Positions 9,100 to 30,791 of a stretch of DNA of 30,791 nt are shown here, piece by piece (the stretch's first letter is position 1; each line of letters opens with the position of its first letter). The stretch covers positions 1 to 30,791 of the forward strand of contig PHAM01000018.1 in assembly GCA_002841685.1 (NCBI GenBank), given 5' to 3'. Under the pieces are notes generated by a model. It saw only the letters and a program-made list of their open reading frames with translations, was not told the origin of the DNA and did not search any database. The stretch comes from Elusimicrobia bacterium HGW-Elusimicrobia-2. GTDB taxonomy: Bacteria > CG03. The position numbers and the translations under genes are program-made.

Positions 9100-10007
9100 G
9101 TGCGGCCAACGAAGCAAACGCGGAGGCTCTCCGCAAACAGATGCGTGTGGACCTTCATCTGCACACCTATTTCTCCGACGGTTTTTACAGCCCTGAAGAA
9201 CTGATAAGAAGAGCGTGTCTGCGTCAGCTCAGCGCCATCGCCCTCACCGATCATGACACGACAGATGGTGTGGAGAGGGCTGTTCTGGCCGGGGCCCGTT
9301 ACGGTGTGGAGGTGATCCCCGCCATTGAGCTTTCAACGCAGGGCTTCAGCGACAAGCATGACGAGATACATATATTGGGTTATTACATAAACTGGAGAAC
9401 GGTTTATTTCCAGAAGAAACTTTCGCTTTTCCGCGGCGCCCGTCTTAAAAGGGCTCATGTGATCTGCGATAAACTCAACGGTCTGGGGATTCCCATAGAC
9501 AGAAAGGTCATTTTTGAAATGGAGGGCCGCGGGAGCGTCGGAAGAATACATATAGCGAAAGCTCTTGTGGCGGGAGGCTATGTCAAGGACATAGATGACG
9601 CTTTTCAAAAATACCTGATCAGGGGCCGGCCGGCTTTCGCGCAGCGTTTGAAGCTTCTTCCCGAAGAGGCGATCGATATGATAATCAGTATCGGCGGGAT
9701 CCCGGTGCTCGCGCACCCGAAATTCGGCGTTCCCACAAAAAAAATCGCGCAGTATCTCGTCAAAAAAGGCCTTAAAGGCATAGAGGTTTATTATCCGGGG
9801 CTGACGCCTGCGGAAATTCAGAAATACAGGTCCTGGGCGGAAGAAATGGGTCTTCTCGTCACGGGCGGATCCGATTGCCACGGCGAACTTCCGGGCCGCC
9901 CGGAGTCTATAGGCCGTCAGTACGTGCCCTATATGTCGGTGGTGAAGATGAAAGAGTTTAAATACATGATGATGAGGAAGAATATGGGGCTATTTGAAGA
10001 AGTATGA
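9096..10007 (+). CDS. PHP-domain phosphoesterase (TrpH/RNase AM-like)
   Basis: A 303-residue PHP protein. Metal-binding motifs are in order: HLHTYFSDG (His21, His23), ALTDHDT, an EIH in DEIHILGYY, LAHPKF and GGSDCHGE. The best-studied relative, E. coli TrpH (RNase AM), hydrolyses 3',5'-nucleoside bisphosphates and trims RNA 5' ends; another relative is the Chromobacterium cyclic-phosphate PHP enzyme. The start given is GTG at 9096, overlapping the PhoH stop; an ATG at 9141, just before the HLHT strand, is an equally plausible start and would give 288 residues. The stop overlaps the next gene by ATGA. Next to PIN-PhoH, it suggests RNA or nucleotide turnover. Confidence 0.9.
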   Translation: MSAANEANAEALRKQMRVDLHLHTYFSDGFYSPEELIRRACLRQLSAIALTDHDTTDGVERAVLAGARYGVEVIPAIELSTQGFSDKHDEIHILGYYINWRTVYFQKKLSLFRGARLKRAHVICDKLNGLGIPIDRKVIFEMEGRGSVGRIHIAKALVAGGYVKDIDDAFQKYLIRGRPAFAQRLKLLPEEAIDMIISIGGIPVLAHPKFGVPTKKIAQYLVKKGLKGIEVYYPGLTPAEIQKYRSWAEEMGLLVTGGSDCHGELPGRPESIGRQYVPYMSVVKMKEFKYMMMRKNMGLFEEV

Positions 10008-11299
10008 CTACAGAAAAATTTTACAAAGAATATTACGGCAGTCCCGTGATAAGGGGTGTGATAAAGGGGCAGTTCAATGACGCCGCTTTTGCCGTCGGCA
10101 GCGGCCCTTTTCTAAAAAATCAGAAATGGCATTTCCCCGTGAAGATCTCGCCGGTATCCGCCCTGGACGAATTTATGGCCGAGGGGCTTGATATTTACAG
10201 GCCGGCTGTTTCCACGGGCGAAGCTTTTTATATATTCTGGGATCTTGAATACTATAACAAAAAACAGAGGTCATATATTTACAGGCATCAGCGGAAAGTT
10301 TTTTCATGGATGGAGCCCTTTATAAAAGATATAAGCTCCCTGCTTGACGGCTACGGCATCAATTATATCCTCGACACCACCGCGTCGGGTTATCACTACT
10401 GGATGAAGATCTCAAAAAAATCGGCTATCTTCAGAGCGCTCGCGGAAGAGGGTTTCATAACTGACAGCCTGAGGGAAAAATACTCCATGGTTGTGCCCGG
10501 TGATATAAAGCGCTCAAAACCCGTACCGGAAGAAGACGGCCGGGTCTACGACTGCGCGGGAAAACTGCTTGAATATCTTACACAAAAAATAAGAAAAGAG
10601 ATGCCGCGCGCGAAAGACGGGATAGACATGACAATTTCAGATTCGCCTCCTGTCGCCGGCGTCCGCCACGACGGTTTTTCATCGGACATAACGCAGTACG
10701 CGCACCCGCTATTCATGAGGGTGTTCCGGGTTATAGCGTCTTTACATCAGAAGAACGTACTCTACTATGGAGGAAGATTGCCCGCCGTGGACATAGTCAG
10801 GAGAAAAAACATGTCTATGTCAAAAGTGCTCGACTGTATGTGGGACGCGGGGAAAGCTGTAAGCCTTTTTCGCGATTTCTCCCCCGCGCTTGATTATTCG
10901 GATAAAGGTTTTTTGAAACTTTTCAGAGAGTACAAAAAAAGTGTGACGGGAAAATTGCACAGGGAGTTTGAGAACGCCGCGCCGGAGAAATTACACATCG
11001 ACGATGAGCCGGAAAAGATCAGAAAATATTTTGCCCCGAAAAAGGCCAACCCTTCTTTGCTGGAGCCCTCGGTTCTGCAGGGAATAATAGACCATTATTC
11101 GGCGCTCGGCGCCGGAAAACTCAAGGGCGCCCTCAAGATCATAGGCGAGTATTATAACGATCCGTCGTACCGCTGGTATAACAAAGAGCGTTTTACGGGG
11201 ATAGACTGGATAAAGTATGACGCCGAGCAGGCCGCGCATTTCTGGGGCCGGGTTTATTTCACGCAGTTTAAGCTGGACGGGAAGGTGAAAAATGGATAA
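10004..11299 (+). CDS. Uncharacterised protein with possible archaeo-eukaryotic primase motifs
   Basis: A 431-residue protein not matched to a named bacterial family. Three motifs match, in order, the catalytic pattern of archaeo-eukaryotic primases (AEP/PrimPol): a hydrophobic strand ending in Asp80-Leu-Glu82 (FYIFWDLEYY), then Ser128-Gly-Tyr-His131 (TASGYHYW), then Ile-Asp208 with Asp213 and Arg221 (GIDMTISD...VAGVRH), resembling the PriS ID..VT.D....R stretch. The C-terminal third (YKKSVTG onward) is charged and mainly helical, with no visible zinc motif. The start overlaps the PHP gene by ATGA, and the last codons overlap clpC by 8 nt. The primase reading is inference from motif order and spacing; a non-catalytic or unrelated alpha/beta protein remains possible. 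Base use matches its neighbours. Confidence 0.5.
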   Translation: MTTEKFYKEYYGSPVIRGVIKGQFNDAAFAVGSGPFLKNQKWHFPVKISPVSALDEFMAEGLDIYRPAVSTGEAFYIFWDLEYYNKKQRSYIYRHQRKVFSWMEPFIKDISSLLDGYGINYILDTTASGYHYWMKISKKSAIFRALAEEGFITDSLREKYSMVVPGDIKRSKPVPEEDGRVYDCAGKLLEYLTQKIRKEMPRAKDGIDMTISDSPPVAGVRHDGFSSDITQYAHPLFMRVFRVIASLHQKNVLYYGGRLPAVDIVRRKNMSMSKVLDCMWDAGKAVSLFRDFSPALDYSDKGFLKLFREYKKSVTGKLHREFENAAPEKLHIDDEPEKIRKYFAPKKANPSLLEPSVLQGIIDHYSALGAGKLKGALKIIGEYYNDPSYRWYNKERFTGIDWIKYDAEQAAHFWGRVYFTQFKLDGKVKNG

Positions 11300-17974: not shown

Positions 17975-19114
17975 ATGGATATGATTGACATTCTGACGGC
18001 GGCGGTTAAGATGGGGGTTTCCGATATTCATGTTGTGCCGAAAAAACCCGTGATGGTCAGGAAAAACGGCGCCATGATCCCACTTCCTGAATATCAGGAC
18101 ACGCCTCTTTCGGGAGATGATACAAAAACGCTTATATACGGAATGCTCCTCGACGATCAGAAGAGCCAGTTTGAGGAGCACCACGAGCTGGACTGCTCTT
18201 TTCAGATAGAAAATATCAGCCGCTTCCGGGTCAATGTTCTCATGCAGAAAGACGGCGTCGCCGGGGTGTTGAGAGTAATATCTTCGGCAATACCGTCTCC
18301 GGAAGCGCTCGCCTTCACGCCGGCCATGATGGAATGTATGAAATATCCCAGGGGCATGGTGCTCGTCACAGGGCCCACGGGTTCGGGTAAATCCACGACT
18401 CTCGCGGCGATGCTCGAGACGATCAATAAGGAAAGGAAGGATCACATCCTCACCATAGAAGACCCGATAGAATTCGTCTATCAGTCAAAGGGCTGCGTTT
18501 TTACCCAGAGGGAGGTGGGCGCCCACACCAACAGTTTCACGAGCGCCCTGCGGGCGGCGCTGAGGGAAGACCCCGATATCGTTCTCGTCGGGGAAATGCG
18601 GGACCTTGAAACAATAGGCGCGGCTCTGACCATAGCCGAAACCGGCCATCTTGTTTTCGGGACACTTCACACCACAGATGCCCCCCAGACGGTTGACAGG
18701 ATCATAGACGTTTTCCCCTCCCACCAGCAGGCTCAGGTCAGGACACAGCTGTCGGTGACGCTAAAAGCCGTGATAACGCAGCAGCTCCTGCCGACGCCCG
18801 ACGGAAAAGGCCGCGTGGCCGCCAGAGAGATCCTCATCGTTACCCCCGCCGTGGCCAACCTCATAAGAGACGGTAAAACCCATCTCATTTACGGCGCTCT
18901 TGAGACCGGAATGAAATTCGGCATGATATCCATGGACAAAGCCCTCGCCCAGCTCGTAAAGGCGGGAAAAGTAACCAAGGAGGCGGCGCTGGCGAAATCC
19001 GGCAACCCGGAAATGATGAATCAGTATATCGCCTCCCTTGGACGGGCTCCCGGCGGTATGTCAGGAGGTATGCCCGGCGCCGGCGGCGCCGGACCCTCCA
19101 AAAGGCCGTTCTGA
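17975..19114 (+). CDS. pilT: Type IV pilus retraction ATPase PilT
   Basis: A 379-residue hexameric ATPase that powers pilus retraction. Walker A GPTGSGKST spans residues 133-141, followed by the Asp box (TIEDPIEF), the Walker B region (DPDIVLVGEMRDLET) and the His box (TGHLVFGTLHTTDA), all typical of PilT/PilU rather than PilB. It ends in a Gly/Met/Pro-rich tail (about 363-379) that may be flexible. GGAGG at 17961-17965 gives a clear ribosome site 9 nt from the ATG. It is the last gene of the PilZ operon; no pilB, pilC or pilin genes are present in the window. Confidence 0.97.
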   Translation: MDMIDILTAAVKMGVSDIHVVPKKPVMVRKNGAMIPLPEYQDTPLSGDDTKTLIYGMLLDDQKSQFEEHHELDCSFQIENISRFRVNVLMQKDGVAGVLRVISSAIPSPEALAFTPAMMECMKYPRGMVLVTGPTGSGKSTTLAAMLETINKERKDHILTIEDPIEFVYQSKGCVFTQREVGAHTNSFTSALRAALREDPDIVLVGEMRDLETIGAALTIAETGHLVFGTLHTTDAPQTVDRIIDVFPSHQQAQVRTQLSVTLKAVITQQLLPTPDGKGRVAAREILIVTPAVANLIRDGKTHLIYGALETGMKFGMISMDKALAQLVKAGKVTKEAALAKSGNPEMMNQYIASLGRAPGGMSGGMPGAGGAGPSKRPF

Positions 19115-19470: not shown

Positions 19471-19474
19471 ATGA
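19400..19474 (+). CDS. Possible 24-residue leader peptide
   Basis: An ATG at 19400 follows GGGGGAG by a normal ribosome-site spacing and opens a 24-codon frame (MMRNIKVNSIFKKIQK...) ending in TGA at 19472-19474. That stop overlaps the ATG of the NHL gene as ATGA. The peptide is basic and has no known motif. An in-frame ATG at 19388 would give 28 residues. Overlap and spacing suggest translational coupling, but the NHL gene also has its own GGAGG, so the small ORF may not be used. Confidence 0.35.
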   Translation: MMRNIKVNSIFKKIQKHNIPGGTI

Positions 19475-20514
19475 AAAAATATTTAGCTCTCAAGGGATTT
19501 CAAAACAATAAAATAAAAATCATTCTCATCGCCCTATCCTTTTTCATTCTGATAATACCGGCTTTGGCTGAAAAATCATCCCCGCAAACAGGAGCAGAAC
19601 AATATGAAGTATATGTTCCGACAGTAGTCATTCAAGCAAAATGGGGAACAAAAGCGGGTGAATTTGGGTACAAAATAGTTCCTGCCCACGGAGAAGTCCT
19701 TCATGGTAAAGAAAAATCGAAAATTATTGTAGGCCCTACTTGTATATCTGTAAATGAAAACGGTGAAATATATGTATTGGACACGGTAAACAAAAGAGTT
19801 CTGAAGTATGACAAACAGGGGGAATTTATAGATGCAATCAATCTCGAATTACCCGAAGATATTATTTACGATAATTATGCTTTTCAAGAGATGTACATTG
19901 GCAAGAACGGACATATATACCTCCGCTATACGATTAGCATTGGATCTTGGTTTATATTTAATAGAAAAGGCCATCTCGTTAAAAGGATTATAGATAAAAA
20001 ATCTGCTGAGACAACTATGATAATGTTTCAAAATGCGAAAAAAGATATAGCCGACGCTAAAAATGATGTTTATGGAAAGTATGCTCCTGATAAGAAGAAA
20101 GAGGAGTTAAAATGGCAGGAAAAACGGATAAAAAAATATGAAGATATTTATGCGGATTCAAAAACAGTATTATTGGATTGGTATGCTGAAGGAAAGATGT
20201 TTAGAACTAATTTGCAAGGTAATATTTATCTAGGTGAGAATCATAAAATTAATTATGGAAATATTAAAAAAATGACAAAAAAACAAATTGCAAATATCCA
20301 AACAGAAACGCTTTCTGAAAAATATAAAAAAATACGAAAACGGATAAAGCCACTTCCATTTAAATCGGATGATGGAAAAGAAATTACATTATACGACGGA
20401 TTAACAGGGGAAGAATTTGTAACTAACGCAGGGGATATTTACAAAATAGTAAGAAGTTTTAACCCCAATAATTTTTCTACTGTCAAAATAATAAAATGGA
20501 CGAGAAAAAAATGA
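19471..20514 (+). CDS. Exported NHL-repeat (beta-propeller-like) protein
   Basis: A 347-residue secreted protein. A long basic N-terminus is followed by a hydrophobic signal core (about 18-32) and an ALA-type cleavage site before EKSSP. At least one clear NHL-like blade is seen at about 85-125 (ISVNENGEIYVLDTVNKRV and KYDKQGEF), with weaker blades on both sides (GKNGHIYLRY, LQGNIYLGE, AGDIYKIV). A lysine-rich helical insertion lies near 185-225. NHL propellers bind proteins or carbohydrates; no enzyme motif is seen. The ribosome site GGAGG precedes the ATG. The gene is strongly AT-rich compared with pilT, and its TGA overlaps the start of the giant gene by ATGA, so the two are probably made together. 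Confidence 0.8.
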   Translation: MKKYLALKGFQNNKIKIILIALSFFILIIPALAEKSSPQTGAEQYEVYVPTVVIQAKWGTKAGEFGYKIVPAHGEVLHGKEKSKIIVGPTCISVNENGEIYVLDTVNKRVLKYDKQGEFIDAINLELPEDIIYDNYAFQEMYIGKNGHIYLRYTISIGSWFIFNRKGHLVKRIIDKKSAETTMIMFQNAKKDIADAKNDVYGKYAPDKKKEELKWQEKRIKKYEDIYADSKTVLLDWYAEGKMFRTNLQGNIYLGENHKINYGNIKKMTKKQIANIQTETLSEKYKKIRKRIKPLPFKSDDGKEITLYDGLTGEEFVTNAGDIYKIVRSFNPNNFSTVKIIKWTRKK

Positions 20515-23500
20515 AAAGGAGTTTTTCTTTTTTACTACCATTAATTATTTGTAATTCAACGGTTTTTGCAATGAATTATGGACAAGCCATAGTAACTAAA
20601 GCTAATAGTGCAATTGGAAAACCTTATTCCACTGGAAATCCACCTAATGAAACTCCTTGGCCTTGTTCTGGCGGGCATTTTGATTTTTCAAATTGGACAA
20701 CAGCTACGGGATTTGATTGTTCAGGCTTAGTAAGTTGGGCAGCAGATTTACGACGAAGGTATCTTACCTCTGATCTGGTTGGCGGTACATTTAGCATAAG
20801 ACCATGTCCAACTTGGGATACTTTACAGGCGGGTGATTTATTATACACAAGCGGAGTAGCAGAAACTGGGTTCCCAGACCCACATATAATGATTTATAAA
20901 AGTCGCGTAGGGAATGAAATAAAAATTATTCACGCGGGTAGTGGTGGAGTGCAAGAAAAAGATTACAATATATCCTTATTAGAAAATACGTGGCAATTCA
21001 ATCCGTATAGATTAAAAAATGACATCATAAATCCGGATATTGTATTATCAGGATTTGAAGATGGAAAAATTTACAATACTGCTGTAACAGTTTCGTATCA
21101 AGTCACTGATAACATAGACGCTGTTCCCTGCGGAAAGTTTTACGTAAACGATGAACTAATTATCCATGAGAAAACTGGAAATAAGACATTTTCTGAAGAA
21201 GGCATTTATACTATAAAAATCATCGGTGAAGATTGGGCAAAGAATACATCTCCGGATACTCTGCACGAATTCATAATAGCGACAAGCAGCTCGACAACGG
21301 ATAGCGAGTTTGAGGGTGGTGAGTTTAATCTGGCATATCTTAATGGCGACGGCTATATAAGGACGGGGAGATGCTGGGAGAAGACATGGGGAGCTTTATC
21401 ATCTACCGGCGTCTGCCGTTACGAGATTCCTCCCGAAGAGTGGAACTGGGACTATCCTGATTCGACTGTGGCGGAGATGGATATATGCGTAAAGCTGGAC
21501 GAGAGCGGAATAGTGACGTATAGTAAAATACTAAGCAGTCCGCAAAAACAGTTACGGCTATATAACAATCCTACCAGTTGGTATAGTAACGCACGTCGTC
21601 AACAAGTCCTGCTGCCGAGCTGGGTGAATCCGGAGTTTCGCGAAGTGTGGGTAAACGGGGAGCAGTGGCCGGAGTTTACGGATTTGGCAGAGTATGAAGA
21701 GGCTATTCTGTGGGGCGACCACAAGGGATATTACTGGGATGTTCAAAGCGGAGCTCCGGATATAGTGGTGTATTTGAATTTGTCGTCGGTTTATTATGAA
21801 TCTTCAATAAATACGCTGGAAATCAAATATAAAAGCCCTGTGGGCGGGGAAGACGGGGCTTTCAGGTTCGGCTATGGGGGGTATAGCGTGAGGATTTTGC
21901 CCTATTCCATACGATTGTTGGCGAATGATATTCAGGTAGGGAGCAGGGTGACGAACACATTTTATGATGGCTTTAATACGTTTAAACTAAAGGCAACTCC
22001 TGCGCTGGAAATTGTTGACTGGGACTGGTGGAACATTTCTTTGGACTGGGGCGACCAGCAGAACATACTTGGGGGGACATCGCGGACAGGCGGATACTGG
22101 TTTGACGAGGCGCGGTTTGGTTTCGAAAACGGGGGTGCGTCGTATTCAATAACCGGAGCAAAATATAAGCTGATGATACAAACAACAACTACGGGAAGTT
22201 ATATATCAAAAGTAATTGACACGAAGGAAGGTTCGGAGTGGGAGACGATAAGCTGGGATGCCGAAGTCCCCGCGGGATGCGTGGTGAAGCTCCAGACGCG
22301 GACGGGGATAACGCCGAACACGGACGGTATTTGGAGCGGCTGGTCCGGTTATTATACGCAATCGGGAAACAGTATAACTTCGCCGTCGGGAAGATACATA
22401 CAGTATAGAGTTACTCTGAATTCAAGTGACCCGAAGATAAGTCCTTTGATGAAGTCGGTAGACATAGATTATCACAGAGACTATGTGCCGCCTTCGGTGA
22501 TAGAGGGCATAACCGGCGAGGGCGGCGACGGCTTTATAAATCTCGCGTGGAATGGCAGTCCTGATATCGACACGGCGGGATACAATATATATAGGGCGGC
22601 CTCGCCAAGAGAAAAAATAAACACGGAGCTTGTAACTGATTTATTTTACAAAGATATGGGAGTTACGAACGGACAGACTTATAGTTATTGGATAACTGCC
22701 TTGGATATAAACGGAAATGAGAGCGATTTCCAGAGCGAGTCGGTTGTTATAACTGCGGGAGATGGTACGCCGCCTATAACAGAGATAACAATTGGAGAAC
22801 CTTTCGAATATCCTAATGGTGAATCTTTAATGGTTCAAACTTTTGAAGGAATAGGAGGATGTTCAATTCCGGCATGGACAGGAGTACCTGGATGGGGACG
22901 TCCAACGATTAGTTTTGATCGTATTCCATATCAGAGTGCTGGGTATATGACTGTTATCTTTACTCCCGAACCGGTAATCGAAGAGAGACAGAATGAACCC
23001 GGCGATTTGCCGTATCCTATCCGAGTTGGGATTTCTTTGGATGAAAGCGATGGCACAAATTTTATTATCAGAGAAGGAGATTGGATAGAGTTAAATTATA
23101 ATGGAAACGAAACTGTAAAAATATTTTTTCCATATATGGAATTGGATTCGTATGCTATATTCCACATTGTAGATGGTGTATATATTGGCGAAGAATCTAA
23201 TCCATCTGCTCATTCTTCTGAATGCGTATACCCGTCACAGGACGGTTCAACATACAGAGATGTTGAATTAACTCAAATAGCATATCCTTCGCCTAACATC
23301 ATTCTGAATATATTTAGTGAAACACCAATATCTTTGGCAGCAATCGATTCCGGTTCGGAAGTGGCGCGGATAGAATATAAAATTGACGAGGGTGCATGGC
23401 AAGTTTATAATTCCGCATTTACTCTTGGGGATATTGCGGAGGGGGAGTACATAATATATTATCGTTCCACTGACAATTTCGATAATATTGAAATAGCAAA

Positions 23501-26500
23501 ATCGAAGAGAGTTATGTTAAAAACGGCACCGCCGCTGGAGGCAATAACGGATTTAACGTCAAAATCAAGAGAAAATATTACATTAACATGGACGGCAGTT
23601 GGTTCTGATGGCACAGAAGGGACAGCGAGCGGATATATATTAAAATATTCAACGAAATCGATAAATAGTGAAGCGGATTTTGTAAGCGCTGCGGTTTATC
23701 CTCAAGGCTGGACTCCGCTTCCATCGGGAAGTAAGGAGACGAAGGTACTGACGGATTTTGAAATAGGCAAAAGATATTATTTTGCTATAACAGCAATTAA
23801 TTATTCCAGTAAAGCTTCAGAAATCTCAAATGTTTGCTCCGGCGTTGCCGGGAATGTACGTTATGTGTCTTTATCCGGCAGTGATGAGAATGACGGGCTT
23901 ACCAAAGACCAGCCATTAGCGACGATACAGAAGGCGGTGGATTCAGCGGCGCAGGGCACAAAGGTTGTTATAACGGAGGGCACTTATTACGATCAAACAG
24001 TCGATATATCCACAAGCATAACATCCGGCAATCCGATCTCTATACATGGCAGCGGCGAAGTAATACTTGACGGCGGGGGTGTACAGCTTGACGCGTTTTA
24101 TGGAGAAGGGGTTAGTAATCTGGAAATAAGCGACATCAAATTCAAGGGCTATACGCAAGCGGCTATTAATATTATATCCTCAGGTGGTACAGAGGATATA
24201 ATAAACCACAATATAAAAATCTCAAGCTGTACTTTTTATGAGCTTCAGGATACGGCTATTAAATTTTCAGGGGTGTCGAGTTTCACTGTCGCCGGTAATA
24301 TTTTTGAGATGGACGAATATAAAATTGCGATGTTTCCGCTGTATGCGATGAAAGATGTTACCATAGAAAACAATATATGCCGCAGATCGGTTTTTATAAA
24401 AACTTATCCGTCTTCATATGGGGTTCGGGGGGATGGATATGTGCTTGGTAAATTCGTGATAAAAAATAATATCATCAATAATCTGAATATTGGGGTGAAC
24501 TGGTTATTCGTTTACGATTACGAAGCGGGCAGCGGCATATCTATTGAAGGCAATACCATAATATGCGAAAGCGATGAATATGATGATACCGGAATATGTA
24601 TAGGGTGTGACGGCGCCGGAGAGGTCTCAATAAAGGATAATTACATAATAAATACATCACGGGATGCAATGAACGAAGGCACAGGGATTAAAGTTAGTGC
24701 TGCGGCAGGGATGATGTACGGAGAAATAAAACGGAATACGGTGGATAATTTTAAATTTGGCATTTGTAATTATTTTTCCAATGTCGCTATTTTAAACAAT
24801 ACTGTCATTAATTGTTCAAATGGTATAACGGCTAAGGGTACTATGTATACGAATTATCAGGCGGAAGTAAGAAATAATATCGTCTCGAGCTATGAATTGA
24901 AAACAGGAACGGGTATTGTGGCGTACGGCAATTCGGCGGATCGCACAGATGTTTTGATGTGTAATCTCGTAAATAACTATAGTGTACCGGTTGATACTTT
25001 TTTGATAACGAATGTGAGTATGGTCAGTGGTGACCCCGGATTTGTTGATGGCGGATTGGGAGATTGCAGATTGACGGCAACTTCTCCCTGCATAAATGCG
25101 GGCGATCCATCGCCCGAGTACAATGACCCCGACGGGACGAGGTGCGATATTGGGGCATATTATTACGGTTATGAATACCCCGCTCCTGAACCTGGATTTA
25201 ACACAAGAGCCGGGGGGAATGTTATAGTGGATTTGGATCCTTACGCGAAGGTGAGTTTCCCGTATGTTTACGAACAGGGCAACACGCAGGCGGTCGAAAC
25301 GGCAATTCCTACTATTGCTAATTATAAAGTTGTGCCTGAAAATACAGGGTACAATATAACAACATCAGCAAGTTTTGAAGGGTATATAACCGTTGGCATA
25401 AAATATCCTGACGAAATAACAGGAGGCAAGGAAAATAATTTAAAACTTCTGCATCAGGACGGAACGGAATGGATTGATATTACTTTTGCCAGAGACACGG
25501 GGAACAATATAATTTACGGCAAAGTAGCGAATTTGTCTTTATTCTGTGTCGCTTATGGGGACATCCTTCCGCCGAGGACATCATTATCGGCTGGTGAACC
25601 GAGTTATGTTGACACTCAAACTATTTATATAACAGACGCAACGACTTTTACGTTAGCGGCAGTGGATGATTTACTTAATGTCGGTGATGAAAGCGGGTTG
25701 GGCGTCGCTGAAATCCGATATAGGATAGGCGATAATCCGTGGCAGGTTTATACTGGAACTTTGTCTGTTGCGGGGGAAGGCAGTCGTGTAATTGCTTATT
25801 ACAGTGTTGACAATATGGGAAATACCGAAATTTTGAAGACGTCAAATATTGTTGTTGATAATTCACCGCCGGAGATCGGCAGTTTTGTCGCCGAACCGCT
25901 GTATTTCAGTCCCAACGGCGACGGGATTAAAGACTCAGTAAATATCACGGCGGCATTATCCGAGTACGCTGATTGGACGGTGACAATAAAAAATTCAAAC
26001 GCCACGGTCGTAAAGACTCTCACGGGAAACGGAGAGGAAACTTCAGGAATAAGCGCGTTATGGTCGCCTTCGGGACTTGCGGAAGGTGATTACAGCATCA
26101 ATATTGCGGTGACAGACAGGCTGGGTAATTATACAGGGGAGTTTCAGGAGAATTTCAATACCTTGTCTGACAATTTATGGACTCAGGGGCATAGCTCGGG
26201 GTTATCTTCGTATTCAATTTCGGCAAACGGCTGGCTGAATCTTACGGCGGCGGCGAGTATAAGCGGCCAATACGGCGCGGTGTATGCCGTGTCAAAAGAA
26301 TCAAAGGATTTGACTGAAGGAATTGAGTTCAATGTAAGGATGAGGGTTCCGACAGACCAGAACGGTCATTTAGGCAAGGATTTTAGAAATGAGTTTTATT
26401 TATTGCCGGCAGATTTATCCGGCACTGACACACATCTGCATGCGTACAGTAATTGGCTGAGGGTTGCCGCAAAGGTTGATGAGGATAATGTGAACCCGAA

Positions 26501-29500
26501 CAGCTCGACTCATTTTGGGGTTCACTGGATGGTACAGAGGAGAGTCAACGGAAGTTTAGGAACCATTTACACTTCATACTCAGAAAGGGACAATCCTGAA
26601 ATAAATTTTCCCGCAAATATGCTTGAATCTGAGTGGAAAATCAGGATTAACGATTCCGGTTATATCTCAATATGGCTGAATGACGTCGATGGCAATCCTG
26701 TTTTAGTGGAAGACAACGCATATCAGATACATTTTAGCAGCGCTCATCTCTACGCGGCAAACAGGACAGAAATATCCAATGAGCAGTTTACGGTTTCGTA
26801 TGATTATATAAAGGTGAGTGACGGATTAAAAGGGTGGGTAAGAGTTGATTTAACAAAGCCCGAAAGTGCGGTATTGTTGCCGGGACACAACAAATATTAT
26901 AATCAGATCAGTTCTTTTATCGGCACAACTCAAGACAATATGAAATTAGAAAAAGTTTATGTTCAAGTTTTGAATCAAAATGAGAAGTTATACTGGAACT
27001 CCTTAATACCGGAGTGGACAACAACTTCCGTATGGAACGATGTTGAATTCAGTAGTAGAGCATGGATTTTAACGGCTCCGGAGCTGACAAACAACACGAC
27101 ATATCTCGTTAGTTCAAAGGCGGAAGATTCAGCGGGGAACACGGAGAGTGAGGGTGAGGCAGGTTTTGTGAATGCTCATTCATTTGTTTTTGACAATGAG
27201 CCGCCGCAGATAACAATTGTTTCACCGAAAGCGGGGGAAGTTTATATTGCGGAAAAATCCACAATCAAAATTGATTTTAGTGTAACGGATGCGGGTCCGC
27301 ACACGAAGCAGGCATACCTGAAACTGGTAGAAAGTTCGCAGACAGGGGCGATAATAGGGACAATGGTAACGGTAAATAATGGTGACGAATTAGAACCTCG
27401 TGATTTGCCGTATTATGGGTTTTATACATTAACAGTGGAAGCGGAAGACTGGGCAGGGCATAAGTCATCGTCGGAAACCGCAAAGTTTGAGGTGATATGG
27501 GATATTCTGCCTCCAAGAACAGAGATAGGGGTTAGCGGGGAGAGGATAGAGATTGGCGGGAAGGAGTATGTGGCATCTGAAACGAGTTTTGCATTGACTG
27601 CAGTTGATGATTTAGTTGAAGTTGGAGACGAGATTGGTCTCGGGGTGAATAAGACACAATTTAAAATTAAAAATGAAAACTTGAATATTGAAACTGATTG
27701 GCTTGAATACAGAAACGCATTTTCATTTTCTTCTCTGATTACGGAGTACGGATTACTGATTGCTTTTTCCGATGGAAAATACACAATTGACTATTACAGT
27801 GTTGATGTGATAGGTAATGCGGAACTGATACAGTCAGCGACATATTATCTTGACAGCACCGCTCCGGATGCGCCAATAGAACTGGTGGCGGATGGTTTAT
27901 CCCCGAGTCCGTGGAAAAACAGTACAACTTATACCATATCATGGGCGGATCCCGATGCTTTTTCGGGCATAGCAGGCGCGTATTACAAACTGCGCCAGTC
28001 CCCTGCAACCGCTATTGACGGGACTTTTGTAATCCCGGCGATGATAGAGGATAAGAACTGGCTGGCGAACTGGCATTTTGACAGTTGGGATGATACTGTT
28101 TTCACACCTGCCGGCTGGTCAGGAAGCCATGCAAGTTTGAATTGGAACAAGTCGGAAGATTCATTGCTGGGCGAATATTCCTGCAGGGTTACTGCGTCTG
28201 CCCGCAGGGCTTTAAGGCAATGGGGTTTGACAATGAATAAGTGGACAGAATACCATGCCCGGGTGTTGGTGAAAGGAAAAGGGAAAATAAATCTGGGGAT
28301 AAAGTACCCTGCTTCAACATATGTATATTATGGTGGTTGGCAAGATATAGATACTGATAACTGGGTTGCAGTAAATGTGTCCCGGAAGCCAACAAACACT
28401 GGTGCTGACGGCGGGATAGTGATAATGACCGAAAGTATAGATGGTGAAATATTATTTGGTGCAGCCTGGTTTAGCAATGAAGAACCGCCGTCCGACTGGC
28501 CGCATCCGACGACTTATGATAAATTTACTGCTTCTTTTGATGAACTTGAGGAAGGAGAAAATACCCTGTATGTGTGGTTTGAGGACAATGTGGGAAATGT
28601 CTCTCACGAGAACAGCTCAACGGTAAAATTAAGGTATGATATAACCCCGCCTGCAATATCAATTGTATCTCCCGTAGCAGAAGAAAAATTCTATGCTATT
28701 GTTTCTACAATAACGGTAAATTACATTGTTAGTGATAATCTTGACCTCGCACCTCAGCACACAGCATGTTTGAGAAATCTTCAAACAGGGACATCGTTTT
28801 ATTTATACCCCGGACAGCAAATTGAACCGCTGAACATCGATGCGGGTTTCTGGGAGTTATGTATTAAAGCGAAAGACCATGCAGGGAATATGGCAGAGTC
28901 ATCTGGTGGGCCATTTGAGGTGATTCGCGATATTTTGCCTCCGAGAACAGAGATAGTGGTTAGCGGGGAGCGGTTTGCGGTTAGTGAAAAGGAGTATGTG
29001 ACGTCAAAGACGAGTTTTAGTTTAACAGCGGTTGATGATCTGATAGAGGTAGTTGATGGGGCAGGATTGGGAGTAAAACAAATCAGATATCAGATAAGGA
29101 ATACGGGATACAAGATATACGAAAGCACTTTTTATATAACAGGTACAGATGGAATCTACAGGGTAGATTATCTCAGTGAGGATGTGATTGGGAATACAGA
29201 ATTGACAAAGACGGCCACATATTATCTTGACAATACAGCACCTGAGACAGCATTAAGTATAGGCACACCGCAGTATACAGAGGAAGGGAAGATTTATATA
29301 TCAGAGGAAACAGGGATAACGCTATCGGCGATTGACCCTGTAATAGAAGAAACAGCGTCGGGAGTTCAATATACGGAGTACAGGATAGGCGGTGCCGGCT
29401 GGCAAACATATTCAACGCCATTTACATTAACAGCAAGCATCAGGTTAGTGGAATACAGGAGTATTGACAATGTTGAGAACACGGAAGAGATAAAGAGCAT

Positions 29501-30791
29501 AATGCTTTATGTTGATAACACACCGCCGGTGACAGCGATAGCAATGGAAGGGACTAGATACGCAAACGAGGACGGGCTTTATGTGACGTCGGCGACGACA
29601 TTTACGCTTACGGCGGATGATCTCATTGTTGAGGAAGTGGCGTCGGGGGTAATGGAAACAAAATACCGGATTTTAAGCAGCACGGGAGTTTATGATGACT
29701 GGCGGATATGTGAGCCAATCAATATTATCGGCCCCGACGGTATTTACAAAATAGAGCATTACAGCGTTGATAATTTGCTGAACACAGAAATCGTCAAATC
29801 AATAACGGTGAAGCTGGATAATACCCAGCCGGAGACGGAAATCATCGCAAGCGCGCCGCAGTATGTTTCGGAGGGTGAAATTTACATTTCACCGCAAACG
29901 CAGATAGAATTGATTGCGCTTGACCCGCTCATAAATGAGGTAGCCGTTGGGGTGGAAACGGTAAAATACAGAATAGACAACAGCGACTGGAAGATTTGCA
30001 CGGGAACATTTACACTGACAGAGGGAGTGAGGACTGTTGAGTATTATGCCTATGATCATCTGAAGAACACAGAGGAAATCAAAACGCGGATGTATCATGT
30101 TGACGGCACGCCGCCGATGAGTTCTATCAGCGCGGCAGAGCCGCGCTTTGAGGCCTTCGGTTTAACAATGATAACGCCTGAGACGCAGATAGGCCTGACG
30201 GCGAATGACCCTGAAGTAAGCGCCGTCGCCAGCGGAGTGAACCGTATAGAATACAGAATAGACCCGTCAACGGTTACGCAAACGCTGTGGGAAGTTTATA
30301 CGGGCACATTTACTTTGGCGGAAGGGGCTCATATTGTTGAATACAGAAGCGTTGATAATGTCAGCAACACGGAAACCGTAAAAGAAGCGGTTTACACGGT
30401 GACTTATATAAGCGAATATGCCGCCTACGGCGAAGACGGGGTAAAGGTGAGCGGACAGGGAGAGATTTTCGGAAATGTGAGGTCAAACGGCGAGGTGAAA
30501 GTCGCGGGACAGGCAATGATAGCTGGAGACGCGTCGGGTGAGACGGTTGAACTTGACGGAACAGAAGCAAAGATAACAGGGGAAATAACAGAAAGTTCGG
30601 AAAAAATAAATCCGTGGTGCATAGACCTTGACGCGATAAAAGAAAGAGTCGCGGAAAACAATGATAACGATAAATTGAATTTGAAGGACGGGAAACTGCA
30701 GATCAATTCAAATAAGACAGTGACGATAACGAGCGGCACATATTATCTGAGCGGGATAAATGTGACGGCGAAAGCGAAGCTCAACATAGAA
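20511..30791 (+). CDS. Giant exported NlpC/P60 multidomain surface protein (partial, 3' end beyond window)
   Basis: The frame is open from the ATG at 20511 to the last base, at least 3,427 residues. Order of parts: signal peptide (1-20, ending VFA); NlpC/P60 peptidase (about 22-165) with Cys70 in GFDCSGLV, His125 in DPHIMIY and His141 in IIHAG; Ig-like and unassigned beta domains; FN3 (about 660-752); OmpL47-like module (936-1003); FN3 (1006-1110); right-handed parallel beta-helix (1116-1551, opening VRYVSLSGSDENDG); OmpL47-like (1688-1789); FlgD-type Ig with SPNGDG at 1800; a jelly-roll-like region; Ig and OmpL47 modules (2334-2450); a carbohydrate-binding-like insertion (about 2515-2665); five OmpL47 modules in a row (2810-3298); then a bactofilin-like beta region. 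It is likely cell-surface or secreted, acting on peptidoglycan through NlpC and on glycans or other cells through the repeats (inference). It is coupled to the NHL gene by ATGA. Confidence 0.88.
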   Translation, partial: MKRSFSFLLPLIICNSTVFAMNYGQAIVTKANSAIGKPYSTGNPPNETPWPCSGGHFDFSNWTTATGFDCSGLVSWAADLRRRYLTSDLVGGTFSIRPCPTWDTLQAGDLLYTSGVAETGFPDPHIMIYKSRVGNEIKIIHAGSGGVQEKDYNISLLENTWQFNPYRLKNDIINPDIVLSGFEDGKIYNTAVTVSYQVTDNIDAVPCGKFYVNDELIIHEKTGNKTFSEEGIYTIKIIGEDWAKNTSPDTLHEFIIATSSSTTDSEFEGGEFNLAYLNGDGYIRTGRCWEKTWGALSSTGVCRYEIPPEEWNWDYPDSTVAEMDICVKLDESGIVTYSKILSSPQKQLRLYNNPTSWYSNARRQQVLLPSWVNPEFREVWVNGEQWPEFTDLAEYEEAILWGDHKGYYWDVQSGAPDIVVYLNLSSVYYESSINTLEIKYKSPVGGEDGAFRFGYGGYSVRILPYSIRLLANDIQVGSRVTNTFYDGFNTFKLKATPALEIVDWDWWNISLDWGDQQNILGGTSRTGGYWFDEARFGFENGGASYSITGAKYKLMIQTTTTGSYISKVIDTKEGSEWETISWDAEVPAGCVVKLQTRTGITPNTDGIWSGWSGYYTQSGNSITSPSGRYIQYRVTLNSSDPKISPLMKSVDIDYHRDYVPPSVIEGITGEGGDGFINLAWNGSPDIDTAGYNIYRAASPREKINTELVTDLFYKDMGVTNGQTYSYWITALDINGNESDFQSESVVITAGDGTPPITEITIGEPFEYPNGESLMVQTFEGIGGCSIPAWTGVPGWGRPTISFDRIPYQSAGYMTVIFTPEPVIEERQNEPGDLPYPIRVGISLDESDGTNFIIREGDWIELNYNGNETVKIFFPYMELDSYAIFHIVDGVYIGEESNPSAHSSECVYPSQDGSTYRDVELTQIAYPSPNIILNIFSETPISLAAIDSGSEVARIEYKIDEGAWQVYNSAFTLGDIAEGEYIIYYRSTDNFDNIEIAKSKRVMLKTAPPLEAITDLTSKSRENITLTWTAVGSDGTEGTASGYILKYSTKSINSEADFVSAAVYPQGWTPLPSGSKETKVLTDFEIGKRYYFAITAINYSSKASEISNVCSGVAGNVRYVSLSGSDENDGLTKDQPLATIQKAVDSAAQGTKVVITEGTYYDQTVDISTSITSGNPISIHGSGEVILDGGGVQLDAFYGEGVSNLEISDIKFKGYTQAAINIISSGGTEDIINHNIKISSCTFYELQDTAIKFSGVSSFTVAGNIFEMDEYKIAMFPLYAMKDVTIENNICRRSVFIKTYPSSYGVRGDGYVLGKFVIKNNIINNLNIGVNWLFVYDYEAGSGISIEGNTIICESDEYDDTGICIGCDGAGEVSIKDNYIINTSRDAMNEGTGIKVSAAAGMMYGEIKRNTVDNFKFGICNYFSNVAILNNTVINCSNGITAKGTMYTNYQAEVRNNIVSSYELKTGTGIVAYGNSADRTDVLMCNLVNNYSVPVDTFLITNVSMVSGDPGFVDGGLGDCRLTATSPCINAGDPSPEYNDPDGTRCDIGAYYYGYEYPAPEPGFNTRAGGNVIVDLDPYAKVSFPYVYEQGNTQAVETAIPTIANYKVVPENTGYNITTSASFEGYITVGIKYPDEITGGKENNLKLLHQDGTEWIDITFARDTGNNIIYGKVANLSLFCVAYGDILPPRTSLSAGEPSYVDTQTIYITDATTFTLAAVDDLLNVGDESGLGVAEIRYRIGDNPWQVYTGTLSVAGEGSRVIAYYSVDNMGNTEILKTSNIVVDNSPPEIGSFVAEPLYFSPNGDGIKDSVNITAALSEYADWTVTIKNSNATVVKTLTGNGEETSGISALWSPSGLAEGDYSINIAVTDRLGNYTGEFQENFNTLSDNLWTQGHSSGLSSYSISANGWLNLTAAASISGQYGAVYAVSKESKDLTEGIEFNVRMRVPTDQNGHLGKDFRNEFYLLPADLSGTDTHLHAYSNWLRVAAKVDEDNVNPNSSTHFGVHWMVQRRVNGSLGTIYTSYSERDNPEINFPANMLESEWKIRINDSGYISIWLNDVDGNPVLVEDNAYQIHFSSAHLYAANRTEISNEQFTVSYDYIKVSDGLKGWVRVDLTKPESAVLLPGHNKYYNQISSFIGTTQDNMKLEKVYVQVLNQNEKLYWNSLIPEWTTTSVWNDVEFSSRAWILTAPELTNNTTYLVSSKAEDSAGNTESEGEAGFVNAHSFVFDNEPPQITIVSPKAGEVYIAEKSTIKIDFSVTDAGPHTKQAYLKLVESSQTGAIIGTMVTVNNGDELEPRDLPYYGFYTLTVEAEDWAGHKSSSETAKFEVIWDILPPRTEIGVSGERIEIGGKEYVASETSFALTAVDDLVEVGDEIGLGVNKTQFKIKNENLNIETDWLEYRNAFSFSSLITEYGLLIAFSDGKYTIDYYSVDVIGNAELIQSATYYLDSTAPDAPIELVADGLSPSPWKNSTTYTISWADPDAFSGIAGAYYKLRQSPATAIDGTFVIPAMIEDKNWLANWHFDSWDDTVFTPAGWSGSHASLNWNKSEDSLLGEYSCRVTASARRALRQWGLTMNKWTEYHARVLVKGKGKINLGIKYPASTYVYYGGWQDIDTDNWVAVNVSRKPTNTGADGGIVIMTESIDGEILFGAAWFSNEEPPSDWPHPTTYDKFTASFDELEEGENTLYVWFEDNVGNVSHENSSTVKLRYDITPPAISIVSPVAEEKFYAIVSTITVNYIVSDNLDLAPQHTACLRNLQTGTSFYLYPGQQIEPLNIDAGFWELCIKAKDHAGNMAESSGGPFEVIRDILPPRTEIVVSGERFAVSEKEYVTSKTSFSLTAVDDLIEVVDGAGLGVKQIRYQIRNTGYKIYESTFYITGTDGIYRVDYLSEDVIGNTELTKTATYYLDNTAPETALSIGTPQYTEEGKIYISEETGITLSAIDPVIEETASGVQYTEYRIGGAGWQTYSTPFTLTASIRLVEYRSIDNVENTEEIKSIMLYVDNTPPVTAIAMEGTRYANEDGLYVTSATTFTLTADDLIVEEVASGVMETKYRILSSTGVYDDWRICEPINIIGPDGIYKIEHYSVDNLLNTEIVKSITVKLDNTQPETEIIASAPQYVSEGEIYISPQTQIELIALDPLINEVAVGVETVKYRIDNSDWKICTGTFTLTEGVRTVEYYAYDHLKNTEEIKTRMYHVDGTPPMSSISAAEPRFEAFGLTMITPETQIGLTANDPEVSAVASGVNRIEYRIDPSTVTQTLWEVYTGTFTLAEGAHIVEYRSVDNVSNTETVKEAVYTVTYISEYAAYGEDGVKVSGQGEIFGNVRSNGEVKVAGQAMIAGDASGETVELDGTEAKITGEITESSEKINPWCIDLDAIKERVAENNDNDKLNLKDGKLQINSNKTVTITSGTYYLSGINVTAKAKLNIE
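23856..25170 (+). other. Parallel beta-helix domain within the giant protein
   Basis: Residues 1116-1551 begin with the YVSLSGSDENDGLT...ATIQKAV entry typical of pectate-lyase-like right-handed beta-helices. Repeated coils with N-N pairs follow (KNNIINN, EGNTI, KDNYI, KRNTV, LNNTV, RNNIV). The domain closes with CINAGDP and CDIGAYYYG, the usual end of this type of domain. Such folds bind or cleave polysaccharides; no catalytic set is asserted. Confidence 0.75.
28935..30405 (+). repeat. Five tandem OmpL47-type modules
   Basis: Five consecutive modules of about 95-100 residues share the same frame: a PPxT entry, a YVTS or YISE strand, TFTLTAxD, an EYRI...W.xY core, and VEYRSVDNxxNTE before the next entry. 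Successive units begin near 28935, 29247, 29529, 29829 and 30108. The underlying DNA is diverged enough that these are old duplications. They would form an extended stalk on the exported protein. Confidence 0.75.

Follow-up and report, generated by a model that had tools for sequence, protein, structure and literature searches.

A giant open reading frame with an NlpC/P60 head and a predicted type IX sorting domain in an Elusimicrobia-type bacterium

The DNA analysed here (the window, 30,791 nt in full) is the whole of contig C58 in a genome of 1.78 Mb assembled into 94 contigs. Its right-hand part is taken up by a single frame that runs without a stop codon to the end of the window, either from ATG 20496 (3432 codons) or from ATG 20511 (3427 codons); the initial annotation had described a frame open for more than 10 kb and leaving the window, and so it is. 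At the base composition of the region, a stop-free run of this length is expected by chance with a probability of ~1e-101 (log10 P about -101); the giant open frame is real and not a chance occurrence. ATG 20511 is the likelier start, since it overlaps the stop codon of the upstream gene (20512-20514) and a signal-peptide-like stretch begins there. Two residue numberings are in use, one from ATG 20511 (the start taken by the initial annotation) and one from ATG 20496. The features of the locus, with matches in a species of the same genus (G003) where they apply, are as follows.

17975..19114, + strand: pilT1, left border of the NHL-giant-PorV block (pilT2 lies on contig C10); T2SSE match; adjacent to pilT2 in G003 and in G001
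19471..20514, + strand: NHL-repeat-like gene overlapping the start of the giant; PF01436 24.5 bits, cut-off 20
20511..30791, continuing on C10 (L003:79-696), + strand: giant gene, predicted T9SS cargo; open frame, exact 78-nt in-frame overlap, gene order in relatives
20511..20570, + strand: signal-peptide-like N-terminus (MKRSFSFLLPLIICNSTVFA), read by eye from the sequence
20571..21035, + strand: NlpC/P60 domain with Cys 20718-20720, His 20883-20885 and His 20931-20933; PF00877 25.1 bits; triad invariant in G003; profile matches LytE and other NlpC/P60 structures
21282..22475, + strand: module of aa 263-660 with no Pfam match, its last third recurring in other large proteins; 69% identical in G003
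22488..22766, + strand: FN3-like module (aa 665-757), by eye, conserved in G003
23310..23519, + strand: OmpL47 unit 1 (partial); in-house profile 64.9 bits; NCBIfam
23529..23849, + strand: FN3 domain; PF00041 24.8 bits, cut-off 25
23853..25175, + strand: right-handed beta-helix region; PF14592 22.7 bits and PF07602 19.2 bits, both just below cut-off
25569..25859, + strand: OmpL47 unit 2; in-house profile 107.8 bits
25896..26141, + strand: internal Ig domain like FlgD_ig / Big_13 / CHU_C; PF19077, best stretch aa 1829-1880; 87% identical in G003
27510..27854, + strand: OmpL47 unit 3; in-house profile 80.1 bits
28938..30401, + strand: OmpL47 units 4-8, five in tandem; in-house profile 93-110 bits each
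30423..30791, + strand: start of a bactofilin-like repeat region; Bactofilin 13.6-15.9 bits, below cut-off; continues on C10 as DUF7305
C10 (L003:430-693): T9SS type A sorting domain; PF18962 (Por_Secre_tail) 30.3 bits, cut-off 27

The final 78 nt of C58 are identical to the initial 78 nt of contig C10, which is their sole other match in the genome. The junction is in frame and places the stop codon of the giant at C10:696, 618 nt beyond the window, with the sorting domain at the C-terminus; the true end, which the annotation proposed to seek in downstream sequence, was thus located. The complete protein after the join has 3,632 aa (from ATG 20511) or 3,637 aa (from ATG 20496), encoded by a gene of 10.9 kb.

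Gene order in relatives independently supports the C58-C10 join. In G003, genes of C58 (HIT, glycogen synthase, pilT1) and genes of C10 (pilT2, the CRP-like gene and the next gene) lie on one contig, with pilT1 and pilT2 adjacent. G001 has the same gene order as G003 from the TIM-barrel and phosphoesterase genes onward, and there also pilT1 adjoins pilT2. An assembly artefact fusing separate genes, which the annotation had named as a finding that would undo its reading, might be suspected given that the gene spans a contig end and that repeats such as OmpL47 can mislead assemblers. We rejected this explanation as extremely improbable: the homologue in sister species G003 keeps the same module order over ~2,080 residues of its N-terminal half in one frame, the genes flanking the giant on C58 and C10 are neighbours in G003 and G001, and no tandem DNA repeats were found. 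As a separate observation, pilT2 of G001 (L174:2453-3572) is in two pieces, apparently through a frameshift or a sequencing error.

The NHL-like gene upstream has a possible counterpart in G003, where a gene with a similar end precedes the giant; the similarity of the ends is only suggestive and not significant (E 0.09). The GC content is 32% in the NHL-like gene and 37% in the head of the giant, low in comparison with 56% in pilT1; this fits acquisition from elsewhere. Two further genes of the window may be recorded: a 431-aa ORF without a Pfam match between the PHP-domain gene and the ClpC-like gene (10004-11299), and a gene on the minus strand (568-1281) with a weak Cas4/RecB-nuclease-like match below cut-offs.

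The head of the protein, at about residues 26-180 (numbered from 20496), had been annotated as an NlpC/P60 peptidase at the N-terminus of a giant surface protein. This assignment held up: PF00877 scores 25.1 bits when the domain is scanned alone, above the cut-off of 23, and 19.2 bits within the whole protein. The proposed triad Cys70/His125/His141 (from 20511), equivalent to C75/H130/H146 (from 20496), is present, and all three residues are invariant in G003, while the head as a whole is only ~35-37% identical between the two giants. A two-sequence profile (window and G003) finds NlpC/P60 structures in PDB; where it aligns with the catalytic domain of Bacillus subtilis LytE, the matched region takes in the Cys, the first His and, within the IHAGS..GVQ segment, the second His. 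The AlphaFold2 model of the head from the single sequence has a pLDDT of 32, too low to speak for or against a papain-like fold. Judged from these sequence comparisons, the head is probably an NlpC/P60 (C40) peptidase with a complete, conserved Cys-His-His site, an assignment that the profile match and the invariant triad support.

No other PF00877 match is present in the genome. At the sensitivity of our profile, the head was not found in 59 of the 61 genomes searched, G001 and G002 included, and it is present in two species of the genus; a back-translated peptide scan of genome contigs with the N-terminal 755 aa as query returned no relatives. As the genome's sole NlpC/P60 domain, and one that this profile does not find in most relatives, the head does not look like a housekeeping enzyme.

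Beyond the head, most of the protein is stalk. The OmpL47, Ig, FN3, beta-helix and FlgD-Ig modules of the initial annotation were all recovered by domain scans; its 'CBM-like' module, aa 263-660, matches no Pfam family, and the part at aa 563-657 was found in contigs C69 and C66 of the same genome as well as in other genomes. OmpL47 is matched by NCBIfam NF047446 (289.2 bits, cut-off 40), with eight units counted by an in-house profile built from the giant's own repeats. PF19077 reaches 38.8 bits for the whole protein (cut-off 27); the scores of Big_13, Big_5, Big_3_3, FN3, beta-helix and FlgD/CHU_C-like Ig are ordinary to weak. A repeat region is indeed present where a bactofilin-like one had been noted; with Bactofilin below cut-off and a DUF7305 match of 44.7 bits in the continuation on C10, 'DUF7305-type' describes it better.

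The last 80-90 residues of the giant make up the sorting domain. The second model for this domain, TIGR04183, scores 21.7 bits, just under its cut-off of 23. The conserved end motif PNP...GVY...GK.AVI is found also in three other large proteins of the genome (on contigs C48, C5 and C27) and in a C25-peptidase-like protein of G003. The gene that follows overlaps the end of the giant by four bases and belongs to the PorV/PorQ family (NF033709, 139 bits, cut-off 90); it falls below the cut-off of the narrower PorV model. Two other large proteins with sorting domains (2,151 and 2,642 aa; L177:3226-10940 and L178:2200-14000) are likewise encoded beside or near PorV-family genes, such a gene being directly beside the C5 cargo and a few genes away from the C27 cargo. 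This arrangement suggests cargo-PorV pairs. Searches of PDB by phmmer with the sorting domain alone and with PorV alone gave nothing useful.

The genome encodes an SprA/Sov-like protein of 1,713 aa, which matches TIGR04189 with E 8.5e-44 and 149 bits, below the curated cut-off of 200 bits. A profile of 13 SprA-like proteins from the phylum has a single meaningful target in PDB, SprA of Flavobacterium johnsoniae (6h3i/6h3j; 3.6e-23). Scanning named genomes turned up 150 SprA-like loci; the best 80 of these are mostly in Elusimicrobia-titled records. Matches to the sorting domain were found in 15 of the 15 phylum relatives searched. For PorU, the candidates are C25-type proteins matching the catalytic part at ~47-56 bits, far under the cut-off of 420. 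The search for the GldM/PorM motor gave no match in any genome, control genomes being equally silent. As a side observation, the SprA/Sov-like translocon genes (L042:2995-8133 and L072-L151) are widespread in Elusimicrobia-titled genomes, as judged from the best 80 of the 150 loci.

With the tag, the PorV-family neighbour and the SprA-like protein as its basis, export of the giant in two steps, Sec followed by a T9SS-like route, is a well-supported prediction. The TIGR04183 score (21.7 against 23), the SprA-like score (149 against 200) and the PorU candidate far below cut-off weaken the assignment to T9SS. In a survey of 2016, no group other than Bacteroidetes was found to have T9SS (PMC4793230); more recent papers confine the system to the Fibrobacteres-Bacteroidetes-Chlorobi group (PMC11205867, PMC12421860). 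In the literature searched, the coverage of which is incomplete, we found no description of T9SS in Elusimicrobia; database annotations may already name it. The annotation did not recognise the giant as a described family. By its C-terminus the protein is predicted to be a T9SS type A cargo, a known class; what stands apart is the lineage, in which the reviews consulted place no T9SS.

A second giant is encoded in the same genome on contig C69 (G000:C69:4970-23592; L067, L069), with a frame of at least 6,207 aa inside which the contig ends; this contig end overlaps no other contig. Its N-terminus consists of a signal-like sequence followed by an M23 peptidase (35 bits, cut-off 28.7), in which the HxxxD and HxH motifs are intact as judged by eye. 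Its OmpL47 units, whether full or partial, number 16, and parts of its sequence are shared at the DNA level with the giant of the window. Two unrelated peptidoglycan-peptidase folds thus appear, by their domain matches, at the same position on two giants with the same stalk modules. A smaller relative of the C69 giant's head occurs in G007 (contig C40).

The annotation proposed to look for the same architecture in related genomes. The G003 homologue, whose frame is open over no fewer than 3379 aa, follows the same order of modules through its first 2,080 residues, minus one block of ~250 aa, and has a dN/dS of ~0.3 against the window's giant (dS is near saturation). Its C-terminal half differs from that of the window's giant and includes NHL-like repeats, and the head is lacking in most of the genomes, as given above. 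The end of the contig carrying the G003 giant has only an 84% match elsewhere. Between the two giants, identity rises from 49% in the beta-helix to 69% in the 263-660 module and 87% in the FlgD-like part; for the genes beside the locus, this genome and G003 share 94-98% identity.

In G003, the cassette is gone from the gap between pilT1 and pilT2, where the last 35 nt of the PorV gene are left (L173:6918-6952 vs L003:1612-1646); no such PorV remnant lies between pilT1 and pilT2 in G001 and G002. We read the 35-nt remnant as a deletion scar of the cassette. A fresh insertion in the present genome was rejected as the origin of the difference, because the remnant points to loss in G003. The simplest reading is that the cassette was gained in the ancestor of this species and G003, as the remnant in G003 and its absence from G001 and G002 indicate, and was then lost at this site in G003, with a related cassette residing elsewhere in that genome. 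The G003 assembly may contain a strain mixture. Species that are 94-98% identical in the neighbouring genes have gained, lost and reshuffled this cassette.

How such a protein might work can be outlined. It would cross the inner membrane by Sec; its C-terminal domain would then be recognised, with PorV taking part, and passed through the SprA-like channel, after which the protein would stay on, or be released from, the outer surface. The order of the domains would place the head at the tip of a long extracellular arm, of the order of 100 nm if extended, to which the beta modules would lend reach and adhesion. From that position the D,L-endopeptidase-like head could cut the peptidoglycan of other cells on contact, be they competitors, prey or wall debris. 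We infer that the walls cut are those of other cells because a head outside the outer membrane cannot reach the producer's own peptidoglycan, is not conserved in the manner of a housekeeping enzyme and turns over fast. The chances that the protein is a weapon-like surface arm of this kind, exported by T9SS and holding out a peptidoglycan endopeptidase towards other cells, are in our estimate about even. The second giant with an M23 head on the same stalk modules and the fast turnover of head and stalk between species support this reading. Against it, the outer membrane of Gram-negative neighbours would shield their walls. A role in predation, adhesion or envelope attack, as put forward in the initial annotation, is compatible with everything found; attack on neighbouring cells is our inference.

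The usual substrate of NlpC/P60 enzymes is the cell's own wall, and the protein might accordingly be taken for a long periplasmic housekeeping hydrolase. This reading was rejected as highly unlikely: the protein bears a C-terminal T9SS sorting domain and has a PorV partner, and its head is missing from nearly all genomes searched, sister species included. An adhesin or surface-coat protein, in which the head would process, crosslink or anchor the producer's own exported material or would only bind, is a possibility we entertain with some doubt. Most of the protein is an adhesin-type stalk, no other part is conserved as poorly as the head (37% identity), OmpL47 has been described in surface proteins of Leptospira (PMC2698987) and giant ORFs of Omnitrophota have been read as adhesion proteins (PMC10066038); yet G003 retains the complete catalytic triad at this low identity, and the second giant carries, at the same place, an intact peptidase of another kind directed at the same class of target.

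Still less probable, in our estimate, is a scavenging enzyme whose arm digests the walls of dead cells or a peptide-rich polymer as food, with live cells left alone. Secreted hydrolases are common among T9SS cargos (PMC11205867), and the beta-helix region bears a weak likeness to the folds of polysaccharide-binding proteins or lyases. However, a 3,600-residue arm and fast turnover between species exceed what digestion needs, and no linked uptake or degradation genes were seen beside the giant gene.

Returning to the weapon-like surface arm, its parts (the C40 peptidase, OmpL47 and the type A sorting domain) are known; their combination, together with T9SS-like machinery in an Elusimicrobia-type lineage, appears to be undescribed in the literature searched. 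As a tentative and rather speculative generalization, Elusimicrobia-type bacteria may have, beyond the phyla in which T9SS is described, a working T9SS-like export system that displays interchangeable giant arms with NlpC/P60 or M23 tips, contact-dependent weapons that are gained, lost and recombined. If this is true, type IX-like secretion would extend to the Elusimicrobia lineage, and the question of what giant surface proteins of uncultured bacteria do would receive a concrete enzyme. The locus also presents a case in which the difference between close genomes is sharp for a single surface weapon or adhesin, the neighbouring genes being near-identical.

Several known systems can be set beside the giant. 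With LytE of B. subtilis (NlpC/P60, C40) it shares the GFDCSG motif, two His at matching positions and the IHAGS..GVQ segment; unlike LytE, its head is low in overall similarity, is fused to a 3,400-residue stalk and is accompanied by no recognised LysM or SH3 wall-binding domains. OmpL47 of Leptospira is represented by the eight OmpL47-type units, but it lacks the peptidase head, the beta-helix and the T9SS sorting domain, and is not an orthologue. Omnitrophota (Velamenicoccus and its relatives) have giant ORFs for which a role in adhesion or predation has been discussed (PMC10066038), and which are similar in encoding very large modular surface proteins in small genomes of an uncultured lineage; the present gene, at 10.9 kb, is shorter than the >20 kb by which those ORFs were defined (PMC10066038) and differs in its T9SS tag and recognisable peptidase head. 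The 'grappling hooks' of ixotrophy in predatory Bacteroidota are T9SS-associated extracellular proteins with a part in predation (PMC11205867); the likeness here is in the proposed mode of action alone and does not come from sequence comparison. T9SS type A systems differ in that PorU is only weakly recognisable here and the motor genes were not matched by a search that was silent in controls as well. From the cargos of those systems the giant is set apart by its origin in an Elusimicrobia-type lineage outside Fibrobacteres-Bacteroidetes-Chlorobi, its size and its NlpC/P60 head; it resembles them in the sorting domain with the PNP...GVY...GK.AVI end, the signal-like N-terminus, the PorV-family partner gene and the SprA-like translocon.
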